Shown piece by piece: positions 25,330-47,657 of a DNA stretch of 64,000 nt (positions within the stretch are counted from its first letter, which is position 1; each line of letters begins with the position of its first letter). The position numbers and the translations under genes were made by a program. The notes under the pieces are model-generated. The model had not been told where the DNA came from, ran no database searches, and was given only the letters and a program-made list of their open reading frames with translations. Source of the DNA: Floccularia luteovirens (lineage: Eukaryota; Basidiomycota; Agaricomycetes; Agaricales; Squamanitaceae); assembly GCA_009739215.1 (NCBI GenBank), contig VSJF01000002.1, positions 2,294,001-2,358,000 on the forward strand, given 5' to 3'.

Positions 25330-25850
25330 AGCTTGGGCATTTGGTATATTTTGTGTCTGCTTTTTTCCTTTTTTTTTATATGTTTTCAACTTTCTCCCCT
25401 GTATGTCTGACTTTTTCCTTCTTTTTTTATACATTTCCTCTCTTTCTAGTTATGTTTTCAATCCCCTTTCTCTTGTTTCATGTGTCCGACTTTTTTTCCT
25501 TGTTTTTTCATATGTTTTCAACTTTTTTCTTTCTTTCTATATGTTTCTGACTTTTTTTTATCTTTTTTGGTATGTTTCCAACCTTTCCCTTTTTTGTCAT
25601 GTTTCTGACTTCTTCTGTCTTTTCAGTTATGTTTTCCGACTTGATATAGTTTTTTTTCCAACTTGGTATGTTTTTTTTATGTTTTTTTTTCCGACTTTTT
25701 ATGTTTTTTTCCATGTTTTTTTCCAACTTTTTTTATGTTTTTTTTTCCAACTTTTTTATGTTTTTTTTTTCGACTTTCTATGTTTTTTTTTCCCAACTTT
25801 TTATGTTTTTTTGTCTGACTTTTTTTGTCTTTTTTTAAATTTCTTCTATA
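25330..25850. repeat. T-rich minisatellite
   Basis: Tandem, degenerate units of about 20-30 bases built on TATGTTTTTTTTCCGAC, with T runs of 6-9. A long open frame here is repetitive hydrophobic translation of the array, not a gene. Confidence 0.8.
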
Positions 25851-25987
25851 TGTATTATATAGTAGTATATAGTAATTGTAGTAGTAAAAATAAAATGAAT
25901 ATAATAAAATGAATAATCCAATAAAGTATATATACTATTATAGCAGTGCTATGGAGTGCTCTGGAGTTGGAAACTCATGCTATAGGC

Positions 25988-30717: not shown

Positions 30718-32131
30718 ATGTCTGCCTTACACAACACCCTAATCAACATTGACAACAAAGTCCTGGCAATGTGCCAACAAATTGAGGCCATGCAGTGCAA
30801 GTTGACTGAGTGGAAGGAGTTGAAGAGACAGGAGGCACAGAAGGCAAAGGAGGAGGAGGAATGCCAAAAGAGAGAAGAGGTGGAGTTAGTAGCAAAGGAG
30901 GCCAAGAAGGTGGAGCAGGAGGCCAAATGCATGGCTGAAATAGCTGCAGCAAAGAAAAGAGAGGCTGAGGCCAAACAGAGGGCAACCGAGGTCAGACCAT
31001 TGTGGAAAACTCCTACTACCTCAGAACAGATATGGTAAGCCCAAGACATAGTCTAAGCCTAACACACATCAGAGAACGTCCCCAACCAATCACAATGTGA
31101 AGTACAACATTTAGTAATTCTTATGCAATTGACTACCCAACTTTCATATTGTGAAGCCCCAGATGCCACAAATGCCCTGCTCAATACTAGTGACAGCCAG
31201 AACATGCACCCCTATTCTTAATTCCCACAGCACACTCTTCCAGATGCCACATAGCTTAATGAGGATCATGCAGCCTGCTGATGCCATCAACCATCAACTT
31301 TAGCTCACAAGCCCCTCGGCCACTGCATTTCTTAAAATTAGCCAGTAAAACCCCTGTATCAGTGCCATCACTTATCTGATCATCAGTCTTAATTAGGATT
31401 ATTATGTGGATTTGCCTTTTAGACCAAGAAAACAGCACTTCTGCTAATATTAGTGCACAGAATCACAACTATCTTGGTCATGTGTGATACAAGTGCACAG
31501 CAATGCTTAGCCTTGCTGTGTTTCTGCAAAGCAGACCAGATGGCCCTCCAGCATTGCTTAGCCTTTCTTTCTCTTTTGTGAGTTTCACAATTCTATAACC
31601 AGTATAGCACATGTTCCTGGTGATGCCCCTTGCGATTTTTTTTACTATTACCATTCATTAAATTTAGTACATTTCTCTGATTACTTAGTACTCTTTCCAC
31701 AATGCCCATAGATATAAAAGATTGTAACTTAAATAGTGAAGGGGACAAGTTTCTACCATCCCAATCAGTTAGTGTCTAAAATCTAAAAACCACTCTCTAC
31801 CTACTTATCCTTCACACACCAAGCACATCCGCACTCTGCAAGATAATGCACTCACAGACATCTAACTGTGCTTCTCCAATGCAGACTTCATCTGCATTCT
31901 TCCACACCTATGCGCTATCACCATGTGCTCCATTATTTAACCCATAAGTCCACTCCTTAAATACAACCACCTAAGTTCTCAACAAGGAACTTTCTTCAGA
32001 ATTAGCAGATGGACGTGCTGCTCCCCATTAGGCTTCTGAGCCTGCTTGCACTTACCTTCCCTTCACTGTTGTGGAGAACGAGTAGGATGATTGAGTGGCA
32101 GACCAGTGATATGGTCTGCATAGCATGTTCC
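30718..32131 (+). pseudogene. Gene K2, N-terminal part: coiled coil and first half of a zinc cluster
   Basis: ATG at 30718 (MSALHNTLINIDNKV) opens about 95 codons of Lys/Glu/Ala-rich sequence (ELKRQEAQKAKEEEE, AKKVEQEAK), a strong coiled coil. A G LTR (31001-32065) interrupts it after EVRP. Reading resumes as WRTSRMIEWQTSDMVCIACS up to a B LTR at 32132. The continuation is not to the right of that LTR but on the minus strand at 37634-37340, because the intervening segment was inverted. The first C-x2-C of the cluster is here; the remaining cysteines are in the other piece. Divergent from K1. Unrecognised family; a zinc-cluster regulator or element-encoded protein are both possible. Confidence 0.6.
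31001..32065 (+). mobile_element. Solo LTR, family G, decayed copy
   Basis: TGTGGAAAACTCC...CCTTCCCTTCA, 1,065 bp. Flanks CCAT (30997-31000) and CTGT (32066-32069) are explained by one CCGT duplication deaminated on opposite strands. Aligns along its length with the G copy at 26172 but has lost most CpGs. Confidence 0.85.
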
Positions 32132-32592
32132 TGTCAGGAATCTGACATCTCCACACCTCATGGAGCACACGGACATGTCACCACGGACTTCATTCAACGG
32201 ACATAAATGAATGTTACAGACTTCTTCTATTTTAACCTTTAAGTCGTGTCTAACTCATGTCAATTCCCCTTTTAAATTCCCTTTATCCTATTATTGTTAT
32301 CTCCCTCATGTTCTATCCTCCATGTGGAGATAACAAACATTTATTGTATTTAAGCTACATATATTGTAATTGTTCTGTAGCTTGAATATTGAATAAGACT
32401 CGTAATCGCTCCGTTCTCCGTTCTTCTTGTCTGCCTCTCTTCCTCCGTCCCATACAGGACATTTTCCTCCATTACTACAAGTAAGACACGGAAGTCGGCA
32501 GGGCGCAACAGACATCGTTGAAGCCATGTCTTAACTCCATTCTACAAGCATCTCTGCATTCACGGAGATCGTATAGAAGTCAGCTCTTGACA
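32132..32592 (+). mobile_element. Family B LTR at the left inversion breakpoint
   Basis: TGTCAGGAATCTGAC...CAGCTCTTGACA, 461 bp. Left flank GTTCC (32127-32131), right flank ATACC (32593-32597). These do not match each other but pair with the flanks of the opposed B LTR at 37635-38095. Confidence 0.92.
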
Positions 32593-32710
32593 ATACCCAC
32601 ATATGACACCATCACTTCTCCACAACTCACCAAACTCTTTGTTCTCCATGTTTTTTTAAAGCATGGAGTTCCTACTCATGTGACCTTGGACTGAGGCACA
32701 GAGTTTGTTT

Positions 32711-33092
32711 TGTTGAGCAGCCATGTGTGCAAGACACAGTGGAGGAACTCAAAGATCTTACCTTGTGCTTACTTAGATCACACCTTACGGTTAGTGTTAC
32801 TACTACTACCTATAGAATAGGACAAGGTATCTATTCGCATAAGAGTGTCCTTATATACAGTTCTAGCTGTATGTACATATTTGCATAAGGGTCCGTGCTA
32901 TGTCTGTCATAGTCACATGTCTACTTCATAGAACCTTGTAGAAGGTTATAGAACATGTTTAGTCATATTGCACGTGATGCATAGGGCATAGGGCATATGT
33001 GAGTGTAGTCATGTGACACATCATGTGACATATCATCTGACTTATCACCTGACGAATTATGTAATCCATCATGTGATCGTGCTGACGCAACA
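32711..33092 (-). mobile_element. Solo LTR, family C (long form), TSD TGTTT
   Basis: TGTTGAGCAGCC...GCTGACGCAACA, 382 bp, flanked by TGTTT at 32706-32710 and 33093-33097. Inside Gypsy-2 integrase. Confidence 0.92.
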
Positions 33093-33456
33093 TGTTTCCC
33101 ACTTTTTCTGCTCACTCAGAAAAGCACTTGATATGACACTTCATTTCACTTTAGGTTATCACCCAGAGGGAGATGGTCAGACTAAGAGAGTCAATCAGAC
33201 TCTGGAACAATACCTCTGCATGTATTGTACTTACTAACAGGACAATTGGTCCTTGTTACTTCCTCTAGCAGAGTTCGCATATAACAATGCTCCGAACTCC
33301 ACCATGGATGTATCTCCATTGTGGAAAGGCCACATAGCCTTGCCTCAGAAATCACCATTTTTCTCACTATTGGTCATCATCCACAACTTTAGTGATCCAA
33401 TTAGCAAGCGACTGATAAGCCTACCATACATTCTCCTGATTCCATGTTATATTAAC

Positions 33457-33855
33457 TGTTGAGCAGTGCCTGTCACACACAGTGATAGGGAACTACCTTA
33501 TCTGGGGTTCTTACTATTGCTTAGAGGGGCTATACTACTAACTACTACCAAGTAATTTGGACAAGGTATATTGACATTACTATCTTTGTTATATACATTA
33601 TAGGCATGGCTGTGTAATACCTAATGTAGTTACCAGTGTGTACATGAAACACCTCGTGTCTACTCTGGGTAGGACATGAGTCATACACATGTCCATAGTA
33701 AGCTCTAGAATGCTCTAGACCATGTGTGTCATTACATCTTAGTCATTATACTGGTGTGACCTTATCTTATCTTATCAGGTCTACAACACATGACTGATGA
33801 GCACATGACTAATTACATGACTACTAATCTATCATGTGGAGTTGCTGTTGCAACA
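33457..33855 (-). mobile_element. Solo LTR, family E, TSD TTAAC
   Basis: TGTTGAGCAGTGCC...TGTTGCAACA, 399 bp, flanked by TTAAC at 33452-33456 and 33856-33860. Confidence 0.92.
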
Positions 33856-33998
33856 TTAACTCCAATCCAGAAGCTACAGAAACCTCAGACATGTCTATTT
33901 GAATATACCACATGATTCCCCTTACTTCCTTCTTTTATCCCTCCAGCCCAGTGACCAATCAATCCCCTGCACATCCTCTCTTAATCCCTGTACTCCAT

Positions 33999-34921
33999 TG
34001 TGGGAAACTCCCATGGGTTCGAACCAGATATAGTAATACCTCACTCTTTGACAATATAGCTCGAAACCACTCTTCTACAACACATAACACCCTCCTTCAA
34101 AACAACTCATGCCTAGTGCTTTTGAAACACACTTATCAAAACAATTTATCAGGTGGAACTCAGAAGATATCAATATAGACTTGCAGTTTCGAACCAGATC
34201 TCAGTTCCAGATCCAGGAACCACTATGGTGAGCCCAGACCAAACAGTACCTCAGTCTTCCCACCAAGCCTGGAAAATTTCTATAATTCAAAATGGTGCAT
34301 CAGCAAATGCATTACACTGCATTAGGAAGTACTCAGTGGTTATGATTACAAGTAATGATGCTGCAAATGGTTATGAAGGAAGTGCAATTTATTTTGAAGA
34401 AAACTTTCCATTCCTATTTCAAAATTCTTCACTAGTATGATCACTTTTAAAATTTCATGGTTAAAATTTATGTTTTGAGTATCTTACTATATCATAGTAG
34501 ATATAAATAGGGCTCAAAACAGAACAATAAAATAAGTTAATTTTCCCCTTCACCTTAGTATCCAAAAGGCAAAACCTCAGTTTTGATATCTCATTCTATT
34601 CTAAAGAATCTTATTGATTATCCTTCAAACTACTACTATCATCATTTATCTCATTTACAAGTCCAGCAAATCTTGAAGATAGAATTCAAAACTTTGAAAC
34701 CAAGGCCTAACTGCTTTGGATCTACAAAAGAAACATTTTGAAGTAGAACAAAATATTATCTTGATAAGTTTTATTTACTTAAAAACTTAAAAACATTCTG
34801 TTTTGAAAGCCATTGTCTTTATACATTTTATTTCTTATTCTACAAGTGACAGTTTAGGAATTGCAGACAGAAGTGCTACACCCCAAGGACTTCTAAGTCC
34901 AACCGCAACTCAAACCCTTCA
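33999..34921 (+). mobile_element. Solo LTR, family G variant
   Basis: TGTGGGAAACTCCCATGG...CAAACCCTTCA, 923 bp. Flanks CCAT (33995-33998) and CTGT (34922-34925), again the two decay forms of CCGT. AT-rich centre; shares termini with the G copies at 26172 and 31001 but diverges inside. Confidence 0.78.
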
Positions 34922-35553
34922 CTGTGACATTATGTGCAACTTCTTCTGACCAACCCACTCTCCACTTAATAGCCACCAAGATAACCAGACTGTGAGATCA
35001 CCCTTCCTATCTTGACAATCATGCTATCTAATCACTTGGCACCCTTGTCCACCCTTGTGCCATCTAGTTATCTCACATGTGACTCCAAAAATAGCAAGGT
35101 ATGCTCCAGACTTCTGTGATCATGTGCAACACAAGCATTGCATGCTTGCTTGCTGGCCTGTTGACTATACCAAACTCTTCATAACTACTTCATTTTCTCC
35201 CCTACCCTTTCGCTTATTAGAGATTGGACTCTCCCACACCCTTTGAACTATTTCTCCATTTATCTCATTTTTCACACTGTTTTACAAACAGTAAAATTAA
35301 AAATACTTCACTAGCTACTCAAAAATGTTCTCTCTCTGTAGAAAGCAAAAACTTGTATAGTAGTTAGAAAAATTCAGTTTCCCTTTCCCCTCTTCTCAGA
35401 GAATATTCAGAAGCAGAGAAAACCAGCTCATCCTAAGTTTCTTCACTCTCCCAACTGATTTCACTGCTTTTGCCCACTATAAGTTGTCTAACTTGTCAAA
35501 TATCATCCTTTGCACTCTTCAGTTGGTATATTTGGACTCTTTAGTATAAAAAC

Positions 35554-35977
35554 TGTTGCGACAGCAACTCCATGTGATCAATTTAGTAGTCATGTGATTA
35601 GTCACATGCTTGTCAGTCATGTGTTGTAGACCTGATAAGATAAGATAAGGTCACACCTATATATATGACTAAGATGTAATGACATATATGGTCTAGAGTA
35701 TTCTAGAGCTTACTGCAGACATGTGTATGACTCATGTTATGGAACATGTATGACTTATGTCCTATCTGGAGTAGATACAAGATGTTTCATGTACACACTG
35801 GTAACTACATTAGGTATTACATAGCCATGCCTATAATGTATATAACAAAGGTAGTAACATCAATATATCTTGTCCAAATTACTTGGTAGTAGTCAGTAGT
35901 AGCACCCCTCTAAGCAACAGTAAGAACCCCAGGTAAGGTAGTTCCCTATCACTGTGTGTGATAGGCACTACTCAACA
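35554..35977 (+). mobile_element. Solo LTR, family E, TSD AAAAC
   Basis: TGTTGCGACAGCAACTCC...GCACTACTCAACA, 424 bp, flanked by AAAAC at 35549-35553 and 35978-35982. Confidence 0.92.
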
Positions 35978-36372
35978 AAAACTCACTTGTTCAAGTGAGG
36001 ACCTCGCTGTCACTTTGTTGTCCTCAGTTCACTTGGATGTCTCTTGCCTTCACTTATTCTCTCGACCTTGTCCTGTGTTTGCTCTCTTTATTTGCTCTCA
36101 ACATTGCATTTATCTGTAACCTCACACAACCTCTTTTTTACTGATCTCTAGAAGATATTTTAGATACACAGACAGAAGCACTGTGTCCCATAGGTTTCTG
36201 AACCTACTCGCACTACACCTCTCTTCACCATTCTTCATGAACAAAGGGTACAACCTGAATATCTCTATCTATCCTGAAAGAGACCTCACCTCCACTCATG
36301 CCAGAGAATTCGCAGTAGACTTGGATGAATTACACAAGGAACTCCAAATCCAAATAGGTATCTTGCAATATC

Positions 36373-36744
36373 TGTTGCGTCAGCACGATCACATGATGGA
36401 TTACATAATTCGTCAGGTGATAAGTCAGATGATATGTCACATGATGTGTCACATGACTATACTCACATATGCCCTATGCCCTATGCATCACGTGCAATAT
36501 GACTAAACATGTTCTATAACCTTCTACAAGGTTCTATGAAGTAGACATGTGACTATCACGGACCCTTACACAAATATGTACATACAGCTAGAACTGTATA
36601 TAAGGACACTCTTATGCAGAATAGATCCCTTGTCCTATTCTATAGGTAGTAGTAGTAACACTAACCGTAAGGTGTGATCTAAGTAAGCACAAGGTAAGAT
36701 CTTTGAGTTCCTCCACTGTGTCTTGCACACATGGCTGCTCAACA
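36373..36744 (+). mobile_element. Solo LTR, family C (long form), TSD ATATC
   Basis: TGTTGCGTCAGCACG...GCTGCTCAACA, 372 bp, flanked by ATATC at 36368-36372 and 36745-36749. Interrupts Gypsy-2 integrase. Confidence 0.93.
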
Positions 36745-37149
36745 ATATCAGTATCAAAGACCTGCAGATGCTAAATGAGCTCTGACTCCTGAGTTCCCCA
36801 TTTATAGTTATACTTATGTCAAGACCAAGCATTTCCATACCACTAGATCTTCGAAAAAACTTGCAGAAAAATTCCTAGATCCATTTGAAGTCATAGCCAA
36901 AGTCAGTTCAAATTCCTACACATTTTGACTTCCTGCAAGCATAAACTCCATTCACCCGGTATTCCATGTCTCACAGTTAGAACCAACAACTCCAAACTCT
37001 ATACCCAGCCATGTTTAATCTCCTCCCCCACCAGTTGAGATTGATGGTGAAAAAGTGTATAAAATCTCAGAAATCCTCAACTCCAAGATTAACAAACACT
37101 ATCGGTGCAAACTTTTGTACTTAGTCAAATGGCTAGGTTATGAAGGCAC

Positions 37150-37339
37150 TGTAGGATGTGACATGTGTCACATGTCACAGTCACATTAAGTCGTAGCAAA
37201 CAGCAACTTCATTTGTAGACAAAAATAATAATAACACCACAATATAAAACATTAATCATAACTACCTCACTATATTCTAATAAACATTCCCTAATCATAT
37301 TTAATATTCTCCAATACTCTTCCTATTCTATCTGCTATA
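37150..37339 (+). mobile_element. Element I copy at the join of Gypsy-2 and K2
   Basis: TGTAGGATGTGACATG...TATCTGCTATA, 190 bp, homologous to the copy at 19773. It lies exactly between the truncated Gypsy-2 chromodomain and the 3' side of the K2 piece, so it may be a terminus of the element that carries K2. No matching TSD is seen. Confidence 0.65.
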
Positions 37340-37634
37340 CTCACAATACTCGCAAGGCTCTCGGCCATAGATACTCCAGCTAACTCATTGGTACTCCACT
37401 GCTTCACTAGTTGTTCATAATCCTTGTTGGACTCCACCAGTTCTGCCTGTCTTCTCCTCTTCTGACATCATGTGCAAGCTGCACTCTGCTGCTCTGCAGT
37501 CTGCCTTGGACTAATCTCGACCTCCAATATGCGACAAGATATCTTGTGCATGGAGCACCATTTACATAAGGTGCTCTGGGTCTTCACTCCATCTTTGGGC
37601 ACCAGCCACTCACAGACCTCCTTATGGTGAGAAC
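37340..37634 (-). pseudogene. Gene K2, C-terminal part (inverted)
   Basis: Read on the minus strand from the B LTR: HHKEVCEWLVPKDGVKTQST, then LCKWCSMHKISCR, ILEVEISPRQTAEQQSAACT, an in-frame stop, then a basic block QKRRRQAELVESNKDYEQLV and NELAGVSMAE. Joined to the plus-strand piece ending at 32131 (one codon spans the LTR site), the cysteines become C-x2-C-x6-C-x15-C-x2-C-x6-C. The join is supported independently by the TSD exchange at the B LTRs. Unknown function; same cluster type as K1 with a longer linker. Confidence 0.6.
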
Positions 37635-38095
37635 TGTCAAGAGCTGACTTCTATATGATCTCTGTGAACATGGAGATGCTCATAGAATGGAGTTAAGATG
37701 TGGCTTCAATGATGTCCGTTGCGCCCTGCCGACTTCTGTGTCTTACTTGTAGTAACGGAGGAAAATGTCCTGTACGGGACGGAGGAAGAGAGGCGGACGA
37801 GAAGAACGGAGAACGGAGCGATTACGAGTCTTATTCGATATTCAAGCTACAGAACAATTACAATATATGTAGCTTAAATACAATAAATGTTTGTTATCTC
37901 CACATGAAGGATAGAACATGAGGGAGATAACAATAATAGGATAAAGGGAATTTAAAAGGGGAATTGACATGAGTTAGACACAACTTAAAGGTTAAAATAG
38001 AAGAAGTCCGTAACATCCATTTATGTCCGTTGAATGAAGTCCGTGGTGACATGTCCATGTGCTCCGTGAGGTGCGGAGATGTCAGATTCCTGACA
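37635..38095 (-). mobile_element. Family B LTR at the right inversion breakpoint
   Basis: On the plus strand TGTCAAGAGCTGAC...GATTCCTGACA, 461 bp, inverted relative to the copy at 32132. Left flank AGAAC (reverse complement GTTCT), right flank GGTAT (reverse complement ATACC): each pairs with a flank of the other copy. Confidence 0.92.
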
Positions 38096-39330
38096 GGTAT
38101 AAAAATCAACTGTTTGGTTAGTTTGTCCATAATCACAAGAATGGAAGTAAACCCTGAAGACAGAGGAAGCTGTTCAATGAAATCCATAGAGATAGAATTC
38201 CATGACTTCTCCAGAATTGGAAGTTGTTTAAGATTGCTGTATGGCTTATGATGCATGGACTTTGAATATTTATAAATAATACAAGACTTACAATAGTCAA
38301 TAACAAACTTGTATAGTCCAGGCCAAGTATAATCCCAATGGACTATTTGAATAGTCTTGTTTTGACCAAAGTATCCTGCAGTTGGATAATCATGGTAATA
38401 TCAGAGGACACAGAGTCGAAGGTCTCCAATCTCCAGAACATAGATTTTGTTATTATATCAGAGTAATCCATCTGGACCTAAAATCCAGTGAGGGTCAGAT
38501 GAATCATTTAGATAAATTTTACCAAGGATGTCTTCTGGGATGGAGTTCCAAATATCATCTTGGAGTTTCTCCAAATCCATGAGGACAATGCTTTGTAAAA
38601 TAGGTTCTATGAGTGTGGTTGCTTGGAGTGATGATGCAAGCTATTCTTGGGTGAATACTGGTCTGAAATTGTGAGGGTTGATAGTGTTACCATTAGAGGT
38701 TTGCATTGTCATTTATCTGTCTCATCATTTGGCCGTCTGGGTTAGGGCATGATTGAATGCTTGTTGGATTTCCCAAGCATGGTAAAGAGAGATACCTTTA
38801 CACAGGTTTTTAACTGCCACCTGTCAGGGCCTCATGGAGATCAGTTATCATGAAAAACTAGTCAGGCATTTCAGACTAGACAGTGTTGCCCATGCTGTTA
38901 TATACAATGAACCTGCCATCCTAGACAGGGGAGGGAGTGTCACTTAGGTTGTTACAGAGGTAACAGAGTAATCGCCTGTATTAGAGGATACTCAAAACTA
39001 AGATCAAGCTGAGGCTTGTCTATAGTTTCACACTACTTAAATACAAGTATGCTACTTCTAATTATAACCTATTGCGTGCTTGCTCAGTAAGCTATGAGTC
39101 AGCATAGAGTCATACAGAAGTATCTACAAGTCATTTAGAAGCCTATACAAGTCACTACAAGTTAAAAGAACCAAAATGCGAGTTATAGTACAAACATGTA
39201 TGGGAAGGTAATAAACGAGGCAGAAATGCATTATGTGCATGGCCTAAAGTCCAGGGAGATAAGTGCATATCTGGATAAGGTCATAACAGACAGTAGCATA
39301 GTCACTACTCCTCTCCTTTGGGTAAACATC
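38096..39330 (-). pseudogene. Gypsy-2 integrase 5' part
   Basis: Minus-strand coding ends at the B LTR in HKPYSNLKQLPI, SWNSISMDFIEQLPLSSGF and VIMDKLTKQLIFIP, the start of the integrase catalytic core. Upstream (38260-38680) the zinc-binding region is only partly readable through frameshifts (for example around WTIQ and the HP-L-GYFG-type block). An F LTR at 38685-39288 splits it from RNase H. It continues at 32593 in the inverted segment. Confidence 0.8.
38685..39288 (+). mobile_element. Solo LTR, family F, TSD GATAG/GACAG
   Basis: TGTTACCATTAGAGG...AGGTCATAACA, 604 bp. Flanks GATAG (38680-38684) and GACAG (39289-39293) differ by one transition. Confidence 0.9.
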
Positions 39331-40702
39331 TTATCTGCATATCAGTGCATCAGGCTTAGCTCCAAGTTTTCCAGGACGGAAACAGATAATTAAATTGAAA
39401 TGAGAAAGATACTTAGACCACCGAGCTTGTCTCTGGGTGAGGATTTTTGTGGTGAAGAAATACTTGAGATTCTTGTGGTCAGTAATTACATTGACTGGTG
39501 TTGCTGAACCTTTGGTGTAATGTCTCCATTTCTGGAAAGCCTCAAATATGGCAAGTAATTCTTTGTCATGTGTGTCATAGTTGAGTTCCAGTTGAGTGAA
39601 TATTCGGGAGTAGAATGCAACAGGGTGAAGTTTGTTATCTGGAGTTTTAACAGAGAGGATCACAGCCAGTATATAATCTGAGGCATCGGTTTCAATGATA
39701 ATAGGTAAGTCCAGTTGCCAATGGGCAAGCACTGGAGCTGTAGTAAAAGAATGTTTAAGTGTTTCAAATGTCTTTCAGCATTAATCATTAAAATCAAAAG
39801 AAACTCCTTTATGTGTTAAGCAAGTCAAAGAGATAGTAATCTCAGAGTATTCATCAATGAATCTCTGGTAAAAGTTTGCAAATCTGAGAAAAGACTGTAT
39901 ATCTTTGACTTTACATGGCTCTGGCCAGTCTAGGATGGTTTGTACTTTTGCCAGGGCCATGGTAAGGCCTTTAGGAGTAAGAATGTAACCAAGATACTCA
40001 ACAGTGATTTAGTGGAATTCACATTTATCTGCTCTGGCGAACAGGCCATTTTCTTGGAGTTATTGGAAGACTTCTCATATATGTTCTTGATGCTTGGAGA
40101 TATTGTCCAAGTAAATGAGAATGTCATCTAAATAAATGACAACATTTATGTCAATCATGTCACAGAAGATATTGTTCATGAAATTCTGAAATGCTGCTGG
40201 AGAGTTGGTAAGTCTGAATGGCATTATCAATCATTCAAATGATCTGTATCGGGTTCTGAATACTGTTTTCTATTCATCACCTTTAGCAATTCAGACCAAA
40301 TAATAAGCATGTTGGAGGTTGAGTTTGATGTAGATCCGAGCTTTTCTAGAAGAGTCAAGGAGGTCAGTAATTAATGGTAGAGGATAACAGTCTTTCTTTG
40401 TAATCTTGTTAAGACTACAAAAGTCTACATAAAGGCATAGAGCACCATCCTTTTTCTGAGTAAAAAATACTAGAGCTCCATATTTGGACTGAGTTGGTCT
40501 GATGAACCTGATGCTGAGGTATTCATCAATGAATTCCTGGATAGAGTTGAGTTCTGGTGGAGAAAGTGAATATATTGGACCAATTGGAGGGTGTATACCC
40601 TCTTCAAGGTGTATTTTAAGGTCATAAGGCCAATGAGGAGCTAGTGTGTCAGCATGTTTTTTGCTAAAAACATCAGCAAAATTGTGATATATCGATGGAA
40701 CA
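39331..40702 (-). pseudogene. Gypsy-2 reverse transcriptase and RNase H
   Basis: Minus strand: KLRLVQDYRKLNNITKKD, PLPLITDLLD, the active site VVIYLDDILIYL at about 40110-40145 (YLDD intact), YLGYILTPKGLTMA, then connection and RNase H sequence LPIIIETDASDYILAVIL, PVAFYSRIF, YDTHDKELLAIFEAFQKWRH and VITDHKNLKYFF, ending RPGKLGAKPDALICR. Several in-frame stops (for example before KTVFRTRYRS and in the LQENGLF region) show it is inactive, though the catalytic residues survive. The 133-codon stretch 39331-39732 is the longest open part. Confidence 0.88.
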
Positions 40703-41164
40703 TGTCAGGAACCTGACATCTTCACACCTCACGGAACACACGGACATGTCATTACGGACTTCATTCAATGGACATAAACAGATGTCAACAGACCTTTTCT
40801 ATTTTAACCTTTAACTCGTGTTTAACTCATGTTAATTCCCCTTTTAAATTTCCTTTATCCTATTATTGTTATCTCCCTCATGTTCTATCCTCCATGTGGA
40901 GATAACAAACCTTCACTGTATTTAAGCTACATATATTGTAATTATTCTGTAGCTTGAATATTGATTAAGACTCATACTCGCTCCATTCTCCGTCCCTCTC
41001 ATCTGCCTCTCTTCCCCCATCCTTTACAGAACATCTTCCTCCATTCCTACAAGTAAGACATGGAAGTCAGCAGGGCACAATGGACATCATTGAAGCCATG
41101 TCTTAACTCTGTCCTACAGGTATCTCTGCATTCACGGAGATCGTATTGAAGTCAGCTCTTGACA
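40703..41164 (+). mobile_element. Solo LTR, family B, TSD GAACA
   Basis: TGTCAGGAACCTGACATC...CAGCTCTTGACA, 462 bp, flanked by GAACA at 40698-40702 and 41165-41169. Inserted between Gypsy-2 protease and reverse transcriptase. Confidence 0.93.
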
Positions 41165-46338: not shown

Positions 46339-46910
46339 ATGCAAGTCATAAGTAGATATAGGAAAATATGAGGAGGGAACACATTATGCATACATTCTAA
46401 AGTCCAGGGAAGTAGTACATATCCAGATAAAATGTCAAGAACTGACTTTGGAGTCAACTCCATGAACTCAGAGTTAACACCTATTGGATGTAAGATGTGG
46501 CTTCAACAATGTCTGTTGTGCTCTGCTGACTTCTGATGTCTTATTTACGAATACCGAAGTGAATGTTTGAAGACTGGAGTTGCTCATGGGAAGAGGATGG
46601 AGTTCAGAAGAAATGAGATTGTGAGTCTAAGTCGATATTCAAACTACAAAACTATATACATCTCTGTAGTTTAAATACAAGTAACAATGTGTGAATATCC
46701 CTGAGGGTGGTAATGCAGAGTGGTACATTTAAAGGGGACAAAGGAATGACAGAAATGGGAAAAGTGTTTGTTACAAATGTTATATAATATGGAGGACATA
46801 AAGGTAAAAGGTGATTAAAAGAAGTCTAAGGTGGATGGAAATATGTCCAAGGTAAGGTTTGGATGTCCGAGGTATTGGAGGTGTTCAGATCCTAATATAA
46901 AATCATAACA
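46339..46910 (+). mobile_element. F LTR fragment, right piece, split by H
   Basis: It continues the F piece 43712-43870 across the D insertion. It is split again by an H LTR (46433-46897) and ends TCATAACA at 46910. Confidence 0.8.
46433..46897 (-). mobile_element. Solo LTR, family H, TSD TAAAA
   Basis: TGTCAAGAACTGAC...CAGATCCTAATA, 465 bp, flanked by TAAAA at 46428-46432 and 46898-46902. Removing it restores the F terminus. Confidence 0.9.
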
Positions 46911-47205
46911 GATATGGCTTCAATGATATCCATTATGCCCTGCCAACTTCCATATCTTATTTGTGGAGAAATAGAGGAAGAGAGACAGACAAGAAGAGAC
47001 AGAGAATGGAGTGATTATGAGTCTTATTCAATATTCAAGCTACAGAATAATTACAATATATATAGCTTAAATATAATAAGATTTGTTATCTCCACATAGA
47101 GAATAGAACATGAGGAAGATAACAATAATAGGACAAAGAGAATTTAAAGGGAGAATTTAACATGAGTTAAACATGACTTAAGGGTTAAAATAGAATGAAG
47201 TCTGT
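46911..47205 (-). mobile_element. Truncated B LTR, minus orientation
   Basis: Family B sequence (ATGGCTTCAATGATATCC...AAAATAGAATGAAGTCT) lacking both ends. Head-to-head with the plus-strand B copy that starts at about 47206, giving a large imperfect inverted repeat. Confidence 0.75.
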
Positions 47206-47657
47206 TGACATCTCCGCACCTCACAGAACACATGGACATGTCACCACGGACTTCATTCAATAGACATAAGCGGATGTCAATGGACTTTCTTCTATTTTAA
47301 CCTTTAAGTCGTGTTTAACTCATGTTAATTCCCCTTTTAAATTCCCTTTATCCTATTATTGTTATCTCCCTCATGTTCTATCCTCCATGTGGAGATAACA
47401 AACCTTCACTGTATTTAAGCTACATATATTGTAATTATTCTGTAGCTTAAATATTGATTAAGACTCATACTTGCTCCATTCTCCATCCCTCTCGTCCACC
47501 TCTCTTCCCCTGTCCTTTATAGGACATCTTCCTCCGTTCCTACAAGTAAGACACGGAAGTTGGCAGGGCGCAATGGACATCATTGAAGCCATGTCTTAAC
47601 TCCATCCTACAGGTATCTCTGCGTTCACAGAGATTGTATTGAAGTCAGCTCTTGACA
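47206..47657 (+). mobile_element. B LTR lacking its first bases
   Basis: It starts inside the terminal block (TGACATCTCCGCACC) and runs to GTCAGCTCTTGACA at 47657. Its loss of TGTCAGGAACC coincides with the junction to the inverted B fragment. Confidence 0.8.

Follow-up and report, generated by a model that had tools for sequence, protein, structure and literature searches.

In the window analysed here, a 64,000-nucleotide stretch of contig VSJF01000002.1 of the agaric Floccularia luteovirens, two solo long terminal repeats (LTRs) of one family, termed B, lie in opposite orientation, and neither is bordered by a matching 5-bp target-site duplication (TSD). How did each of them come to stand between two unlike flanks? 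The evidence points very strongly to an inversion of the intervening 5,042 bp, within one copy of the retrotransposon Gypsy-2, by homologous recombination between the opposed B LTRs.

Exchanged target-site duplications at two opposed LTRs

The LTR pair, its flanks and the segment between them are arranged as follows:

32127-32131, plus strand: GTTCC, one half of the TSD at the K2 target; paralogs L044 and L046 have a single GTTCC in the corresponding position
32132-32592, plus strand: left B-family solo LTR, TGTCAG...TTGACA; presumed chimera after exchange
32593-32597, plus strand: ATACC, one half of the TSD at the integrase target
32593-37634: segment inverted relative to the collinear paralogs, spanning 5,042 bp from one inner LTR end to the other
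37630-37634, minus strand: GTTCT as read on that strand, the other half of the K2-target TSD
37635-38095, minus strand: right B-family solo LTR
38096-38100, minus strand: ATACC as read on that strand, the other half of the integrase-target TSD

The left LTR is flanked by GTTCC and ATACC (two of five positions mismatched), and the right LTR by AGAAC and GGTAT on the plus strand, or ATACC and GTTCT in the sense of the LTR (three of five mismatched); re-reading of the DNA returned the LTR ends and their unmatched flanks exactly as an earlier, sequence-only reading of the locus had given them. That reading had also proposed that the TSDs pair once the segment is flipped back, and the swapped flanks do match at nine of ten positions (ATACC/ATACC, 5/5; GTTCC/GTTCT, 4/5), a result equalled by 82 of 2,000,000 random position pairs drawn from 20-50 kb of the window (4e-5). 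The one mismatch falls in the K2-target pair, at a site where the paralogs read GTTCC, GTTCC, GTTTC and GTTGC. The two LTRs, which occupy both breakpoints in opposite orientation and register as a 471-nt inverted repeat at 94%, are identical at 436 of 461 bases; all 25 differences are transitions, 15 of them in CpG context.

The interrupted element and its uninverted paralogs

The two targets fall in the following parts of Gypsy-2:

30905-30992, plus strand: upstream part of K2; a repeat insert of ~1.07 kb lies between this piece and 32069
32069-32131, plus strand: left part of K2
32593-33320, plus strand: middle part of the Gypsy-2 integrase, split by the C LTR and now opposed to the upstream part
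36228-37149, plus strand: C-terminal part of the integrase (SH3-like and chromodomain region), split by the C' LTR
37340-37634, minus strand: right part of K2, an antisense frame of Gypsy-2
38096-38684, minus strand: N-terminal part of the integrase with its zinc-binding domain (Pfam Integrase_H2C2, 1.1e-11)
39289-40610, minus strand: RNase H and upstream part of Gypsy-2 (Pfam RT_RNaseH, 9.9e-35), collinear with paralogs L033-L036 over their retrieved extent

In addition to the two Pfam matches listed, SH3_Tf2-1 was found above its cut-off on paralog L044 (5e-19), and Chromo on the same paralog reached 20.2 bits, under its cut-off of 25.1; five of eight frames gave no Pfam match: K2, in the L044 reading, was one of them, as were the putative reverse transcriptase, protease and gag frames. 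Gypsy-2 thus shows RNase H, a zinc-binding integrase and a chromodomain in the order of Ty3/Gypsy chromodomain elements, with the chromodomain match below cut-off.

The genome (27 Mb in 22 contigs) was searched for other Gypsy-2 copies. Seven of them allowed both parts of the integrase to be located, and in all seven the parts run on without a break across one copy of the 5-bp target (ATACC in five, ATATC in L035, ATACT in L038); in the focal copy the two halves are now 5.5 kb apart and opposed. The K2 pieces are likewise contiguous over a single target in all four copies where both are placeable (GTTCC in L044 and L046, GTTTC in L088, GTTGC in L045), the alignments ending 5-8 bp before the site and being extended without gaps. 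Both junctions occur unflipped within one stretch, C14:1374718-1380030 (L032 and L044). The reference for the uninverted order thus consists of paralogous copies in the same genome rather than orthologous chromosomes, and these unoccupied, uninverted sites are the strongest confirmation of the inversion. Taking the assembly as given, the flanks and paralogs show the flip itself.

The sequence-only reading had named the integrase and a "gene K2" as the interrupted frames, and the contiguity of both halves in the paralogs bears out the interruption; K2, for its part, turned out to belong to the same element family as the integrase: it is an antisense frame on the downstream side of the chromodomain. 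The chromodomain-to-K2 interval aligns over ~0.8 kb among L044, L045 and L046 at 79-83%, which disfavours K2 as an independent gene. K2 was not found in the retrieved flank of the C6 copy L051, and some Gypsy-2 copies may lack it; the retrieved stretches of L033 and L034 stop before K2 could be judged. Given this place of K2 in the element, both cuts and the whole 5,042-bp inversion are inside one retrotransposon copy; the integrase and K2 sites, though in one copy, are still two separate junctions. The claim that flipping restores two reading frames holds for continuity at the junctions, and only locally; stops and further inserts remain, and the focal copy is dead regardless of the flip.

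Neighbouring insertions and B copies across the genome

Insertions in and around the inverted segment provide controls for the state of flanks at this locus:

32711-33092, plus strand: C-family LTR, own TSD TGTTT/TGTTT
33321-36227: E insertion carrying the S and S' LTRs, own TSD CCATT/CCATT; ends placed by eye, not TG...CA
33457-33855: S LTR, inserted within E, own TSD TTAAC/TTAAC
35554-35977: S' LTR, likewise inserted within E and facing the opposite way to S, own TSD AAAAC/AAAAC
36373-36744, minus strand: C' LTR, opposed to C (a non-exchanged inverted pair), own TSD ATATC/ATATC
37150-37339, plus strand: D LTR, unmatched flanks GGCAC/CTCAC
38685-39288: 604-bp LTR insert in Gypsy-2, own TSD GATAG/GACAG (one mismatch)
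40703-41164, plus strand: third B LTR, opposed to the right B LTR, own TSD GAACA/GAACA

The own TSD is intact or differs at one position in seven nearby inserts, the third B LTR included, so the swap is specific to the focal B pair and does not reflect general decay. Judging by the frames on either side, the third B LTR sits in the same Gypsy-2 copy, outside the stretch compared with paralogs. An exchange between it and the right B LTR is ruled out by its intact TSD and by the collinearity of 40610-38096 with the paralogs save for the 604-bp insert; exchange within the C/C' or S/S' inverted pairs is ruled out by each LTR's own TSD. At the D LTR, ~670-750 bp of Gypsy-2 that are present in three paralogs are missing, and this LTR may be the scar of a second exchange, a deletion.

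The B family has TG...CA ends, a 5-bp TSD at most copies and one pair around element internals, as befits LTRs. That pair, C3:182756 and C3:190311, shares the outer flank GAATC and has an integrase match between its members (C3:186857); a B element containing internal sequence therefore exists. For a wider survey, 30 of 43 listed matches were retrieved, of which 29 have both ends readable (the partial copy L012 was left out). Own TSDs are exact in 16 of these 29 and carry one mismatch in two; a further three match with at most one mismatch once an end is shifted by 2-4 bp, within a tested range of up to 6 bp, giving 21 of 29. Both focal LTRs are among the remaining eight, and of the 28 pairs that these eight can form only the focal pair swap-matches at one mismatch, the next best having three. 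Among all 406 pairs, two non-focal pairs also swap-match at one mismatch; all four copies concerned keep their own TSD (zero or one mismatch), which marks these matches as chance sharing of a 5-mer.

Origin of the inversion and alternative explanations

In the proposed sequence of events, a minus-strand Gypsy-2 copy, a Ty3/Gypsy chromodomain element, received two opposed B-family insertions; flanks and paralogs show that these lie at ATACC in the integrase and at GTTCC in the antisense frame K2. Homologous recombination between the inverted, ~95% identical LTRs would then have flipped the intervening 5,042 bp, so that one half of each interrupted frame changed places together with one TSD half. 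Ectopic recombination between the inverted LTRs, the mechanism put forward from the sequence alone, gains support in that it explains both junctions, and the paralogs show the predicted order and single-copy targets.

The crossover as cause of the flip is inferred. The suggested alignment of the two LTRs for a gene-conversion breakpoint was carried out and located neither a crossover point nor a conversion tract; reciprocal chimerism of the pair was not significant (maximum chi-square 9.0, a value that 48 of 60 shuffles attained). Over the first half, minority states fall more often on the left LTR, and over the second half on the right one, as exchange predicts, with a split of 3.38 that was equalled in 8906 of 20,000 shuffles. 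Informative sites are few, and since the differences are all transitions, with 15 of 25 in CpG context, these tests are low in power.

Several alternatives have to be weighed. The first is compatible with an inversion between B copies: full-length B elements may have undergone the exchange and become solo LTRs later, or the flip may have arisen by replication template switching or annealing at a break instead of crossover. Such routes predict the same flanks, and the C3 element shows that B copies with internal sequence occur; yet the interrupted element, not B internal sequence, directly adjoins each LTR, and extra steps would be required, which makes them rather unlikely. It is more doubtful still that the B LTRs act as a standing flip-flop, with both orientations present among nuclei or isolates and the element recording a series of LTR-LTR exchanges, with the inversion at B and the deletion at D.

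Misorientation of the segment in the assembly, the real chromosome being uninverted with two ordinary solo LTRs, deserves mention since inverted repeats are the classic site of such errors. It is nevertheless very improbable: each LTR measures just 461 bp, the pair differs at 25 sites, the C/C' inverted pair inside the segment was assembled with matched TSDs, and 22 contigs for 27 Mb suggest long reads that would span 461 bp.

LTR elements integrate as cDNA, without excision, which argues against aberrant hybrid-end transposition, a process known for cut-and-paste transposons; it would also start from identical copies, as opposed to the 25 differences in 461 bases, some of which later mutation could have added. 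We consider it scarcely credible here, although it would leave the same exchanged TSDs if both copies came from one site (PMC2775673, as excerpted). Chance has a negligible probability, in the sense of two unrelated solo LTRs whose TSDs disappeared through mutation or deletion of flanks and which swap-match by accident: six other B copies of 29 lack an own TSD and two other pairs of 406 swap-match at one mismatch, but the random expectation is 4e-5, and chance does not account for the contiguity of both halves in the paralogs (7/7 and 4/4).

Relation to known systems

Recombination between LTRs thus remains the preferred origin of the inversion, and it has parallels in several groups. In plants, a solo LTR with unmatched flanks can record recombination between different insertions, and inter-element LTR recombination mostly yields deletions between direct repeats. 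The same diagnostic was applied here to the B pair, which represents the inversion type; the D LTR may represent a deletion of the plant type.

The inversions 2j, 2q7 and 2z3 of Drosophila buzzatii carry, in the excerpted account of PMC2775673, opposed copies of the transposon Galileo at their breakpoints with exchanged TSDs, each target being single-copy in uninverted sequence and secondary inserts having their own TSDs; the B pair resembles them in all these respects. Unlike Galileo, a DNA transposon, the B copies are LTRs, and whereas the Galileo inversions are chromosomal and include genes, the present one spans 5 kb inside one dead element. The uninverted reference was provided by other chromosomes for Galileo and by paralogous copies here, and chimerism, shown for the Galileo copies, is not detectable in the B pair (PMC2775673, same excerpt). 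Rearrangements between Ty1 copies in yeast, as described in excerpts of PMC3102749 and PMC9879454, are likewise the outcome of homologous recombination among scattered copies of an LTR element in a fungus; those were experimental, whereas the B inversion is a fossil recognised from its TSDs. A fungal LTR inversion with exchanged TSDs was named in none of the titles listed for transposable-element inversions.

The B inversion adds a clean new case to a known class of event, in which inverted transposon copies recombine ectopically; its scars are unusually legible, and they reveal no mechanism beyond the well-known one. Exchanged TSDs are among the few signs by which the origin of an inversion can be read from sequence only, and one dead element supplies the test together with its controls (seven inserts whose TSDs are intact, the exchanged pair, the unexchanged C/C' pair, a possible deletion scar and uninverted paralogs), which makes this case a good worked example. 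The flank test is applicable to every solo LTR of a genome, and would yield counts of LTR-LTR inversions and deletions.

Two opposed B LTRs with exchanged target-site duplications

The window corresponds to C14:2294001-2358000 in a 27-Mb genome of 22 contigs, and the inversion is read from one assembly of this one genome. The top named relatives of the host's PRM1 frame, among the matches listed, are mushroom fungi, e.g., Crassisporium (52% identity), Laccaria (50%) and Hypsizygus (52%), which makes an agaricomycete the probable host. A long T-rich array of ca. 0.5 kb with diverged short units occupies 25361-25867. The two focal LTRs of the B family read as follows:

32132-32592, plus strand: left B LTR, TGTCAG...TTGACA in its own sense
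37635-38095, minus strand: right B LTR, TGTCAG...TTGACA in its own sense

In LTR sense, the flanks are GTTCC/ATACC on the left and ATACC/GTTCT on the right; the own flank pairs differ at two and three of five positions, and the swapped pairs, matched across the two LTRs, are identical at five and four of five. When positions between 20 and 50 kb in the window were paired at random, 82 of 2,000,000 draws gave a swapped score as good. The sequence-only reading, that the flanks are unmatched as they stand and pair when the segment is flipped back, is thus borne out, with one mismatch in GTTCC/GTTCT.

The B LTR has at least 43 matches in the genome, a lower bound as for all family counts from this search, whose completeness is not assured; 30 were fetched, including the window's own, and one partial copy (L012) was left out (n = 29). 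With end offsets of up to 6 bp tried, an own target-site duplication (TSD) was exact in 16 copies, had one mismatch in two, and appeared with at most one mismatch in three more once an end was shifted by 2-4 bp. The eight copies without an own TSD include both focal LTRs, together with C1:654977, C3:182756 (which bounds a longer element together with a second LTR bearing the same outer GAATC), C2:183316, C14:2341206, C21:1225078 and C17:2794733. Among the 28 pairs of these eight, only the focal pair gave a swapped match with one mismatch (next best, three); across all 406 B pairs, two more swap-match at that level, both made up of copies with TSDs of their own. Other B arrangements include a fold-back-like dimer at 46910-47657, in which two truncated LTRs abut head to head (46910-47205 on the minus strand, 47206-47657 on the plus strand), and an opposed pair ca. 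620 bp apart and 99.6% identical (C1:653897-654357 minus, with its own TSD; C1:654977-655437 plus, without, CATAG/CCTTG).

Uninverted order in paralogous copies

The pieces flanking each focal LTR were searched one by one across the genome. For the integrase, piece 38096-38500 (minus strand) found 11 matches besides itself, and piece 32593-32709 found seven. In six paralogous copies (L032-L037; L035 after lengthening the alignment by two bases) the two pieces overlap by exactly the 5-bp target; in a seventh, L038, the site, read by eye, is contiguous too, with another insert ca. 30 bp downstream. The single target is ATACC in five copies, ATATC in one and ATACT in one. Four loci (L039-L042) were left out of this count (78-79% identity, one partial, second piece unmatched). 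At the second breakpoint, the pieces of K2, the frame cut at GTTCC, adjoin across a single 5-bp target in all four copies where both could be placed (L044, L045, L046 and L088; alignments lengthened without gaps by 5-8 bp). The claim that the flip rejoins the severed integrase and K2 halves therefore stands, with contiguity in 7/7 and 4/4 copies. Since L032 and L044 overlap on C14:1374718-1380030, both junctions are uninverted in one stretch (integrase 1376618-1376622, K2 1378533-1378537), in which K2 runs antisense to integrase.

The host element

L044:1646-2113, minus strand: K2 frame; window pieces 30905-30992, 32069-32131 and 37344-37634

K2 contains several cysteines and lies downstream of the Gypsy chromodomain, also in three other copies (L044, L045, L046). 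Because these share the chromodomain-to-K2 interval (79-83% over ca. 0.8 kb), K2 is best read as a predicted antisense frame within the 3' portion of Gypsy-2 elements, not an unrelated gene; of the earlier "gene K2", the splitting of the frame holds, and its status as a separate gene is disfavored. Pfam detected RT_RNaseH and Integrase_H2C2, and on a paralog SH3_Tf2-1 with a sub-threshold Chromo; five of eight scanned frames, K2 included, gave no Pfam hit. Both B insertions sit in one Ty3/Gypsy chromodomain element copy, which therefore holds the whole inverted segment. This copy is dead regardless of the inversion, since its integrase has stops (read by eye) and further inserts are present.

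Neighboring inserts

Own TSDs kept by neighboring inserts
Third B LTR: GAACA/GAACA
C LTR, 32711-33092: TGTTT/TGTTT
C' LTR: ATATC/ATATC
S LTR, nested in E: TTAAC/TTAAC
S' LTR, nested in E: AAAAC/AAAAC
E, insertion 33321-36227: CCATT/CCATT
604-bp LTR: GATAG/GACAG

E is the weakest of these controls because its ends, which are not TG...CA, were placed by eye. Within the segment, C and C' are inverted relative to each other (95.8% over 384 bp) but show no exchange; neither does the third B LTR, which opposes the right B LTR at 2.6 kb. The comparison with paralogs stops at 40610, short of the third B LTR, which its flanking reading frames would place in the same Gypsy-2 copy. The C LTR scores 685 of 690 bits against C14:2366906, and 21 of the 42 other C matches listed reach at least 97% (40 of 251 candidates scored); such near-identity indicates recent movement of the C family.

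At 37150-37339 lies a D LTR whose flanks, GGCAC/CTCAC, do not match. The chromodomain and K2 ends bordering it are ca. 670-750 bp apart in L044, L045 and L046, a stretch of Gypsy-2 sequence absent from the copy in the window. Judging from this one site, it may be a chimeric solo LTR with a deletion, from recombination between two direct D LTRs; since a clear 5-bp TSD was seen by eye in only ca. 5 of 16 other D copies examined, a mismatch between flanks says less here than it does for B.

Mechanism of the inversion

Given the assembly, the two B LTRs occupy independent insertion sites, face in opposite directions and have swapped TSD halves, and paralogs keep the uninverted order. Homologous recombination inside the B LTRs would have flipped the segment. 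Between the focal LTRs there are 25 differences; every one is a transition, and 15 lie in CpG context. A maximum chi-square scan (pairs of 27 reference copies) gave 9.0, a value that 48 of 60 shuffles also reached. At nine of the first 12 differing sites and five of the last 13, the minority state is on the left LTR. The LTR alignment proposed in the sequence-only reading for locating a breakpoint gave a split that leans as expected if an older LTR had exchanged with a younger one, but no significant breakpoint or chimerism, the lean being as strong in 8906 of 20000 shuffles.

Recombination among LTR-element copies is familiar from Ty1 in yeast. For ectopic recombination between inverted transposon copies, PMC2775673 names these marks: the copies face opposite ways, their TSDs are swapped, chromosomes without the inversion carry each target once, and the copies are chimeric. 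The B pair shares the first three with that account, the single-copy targets being found here in paralogs and not in other chromosomes. The B-pair inversion is an event of a known kind.
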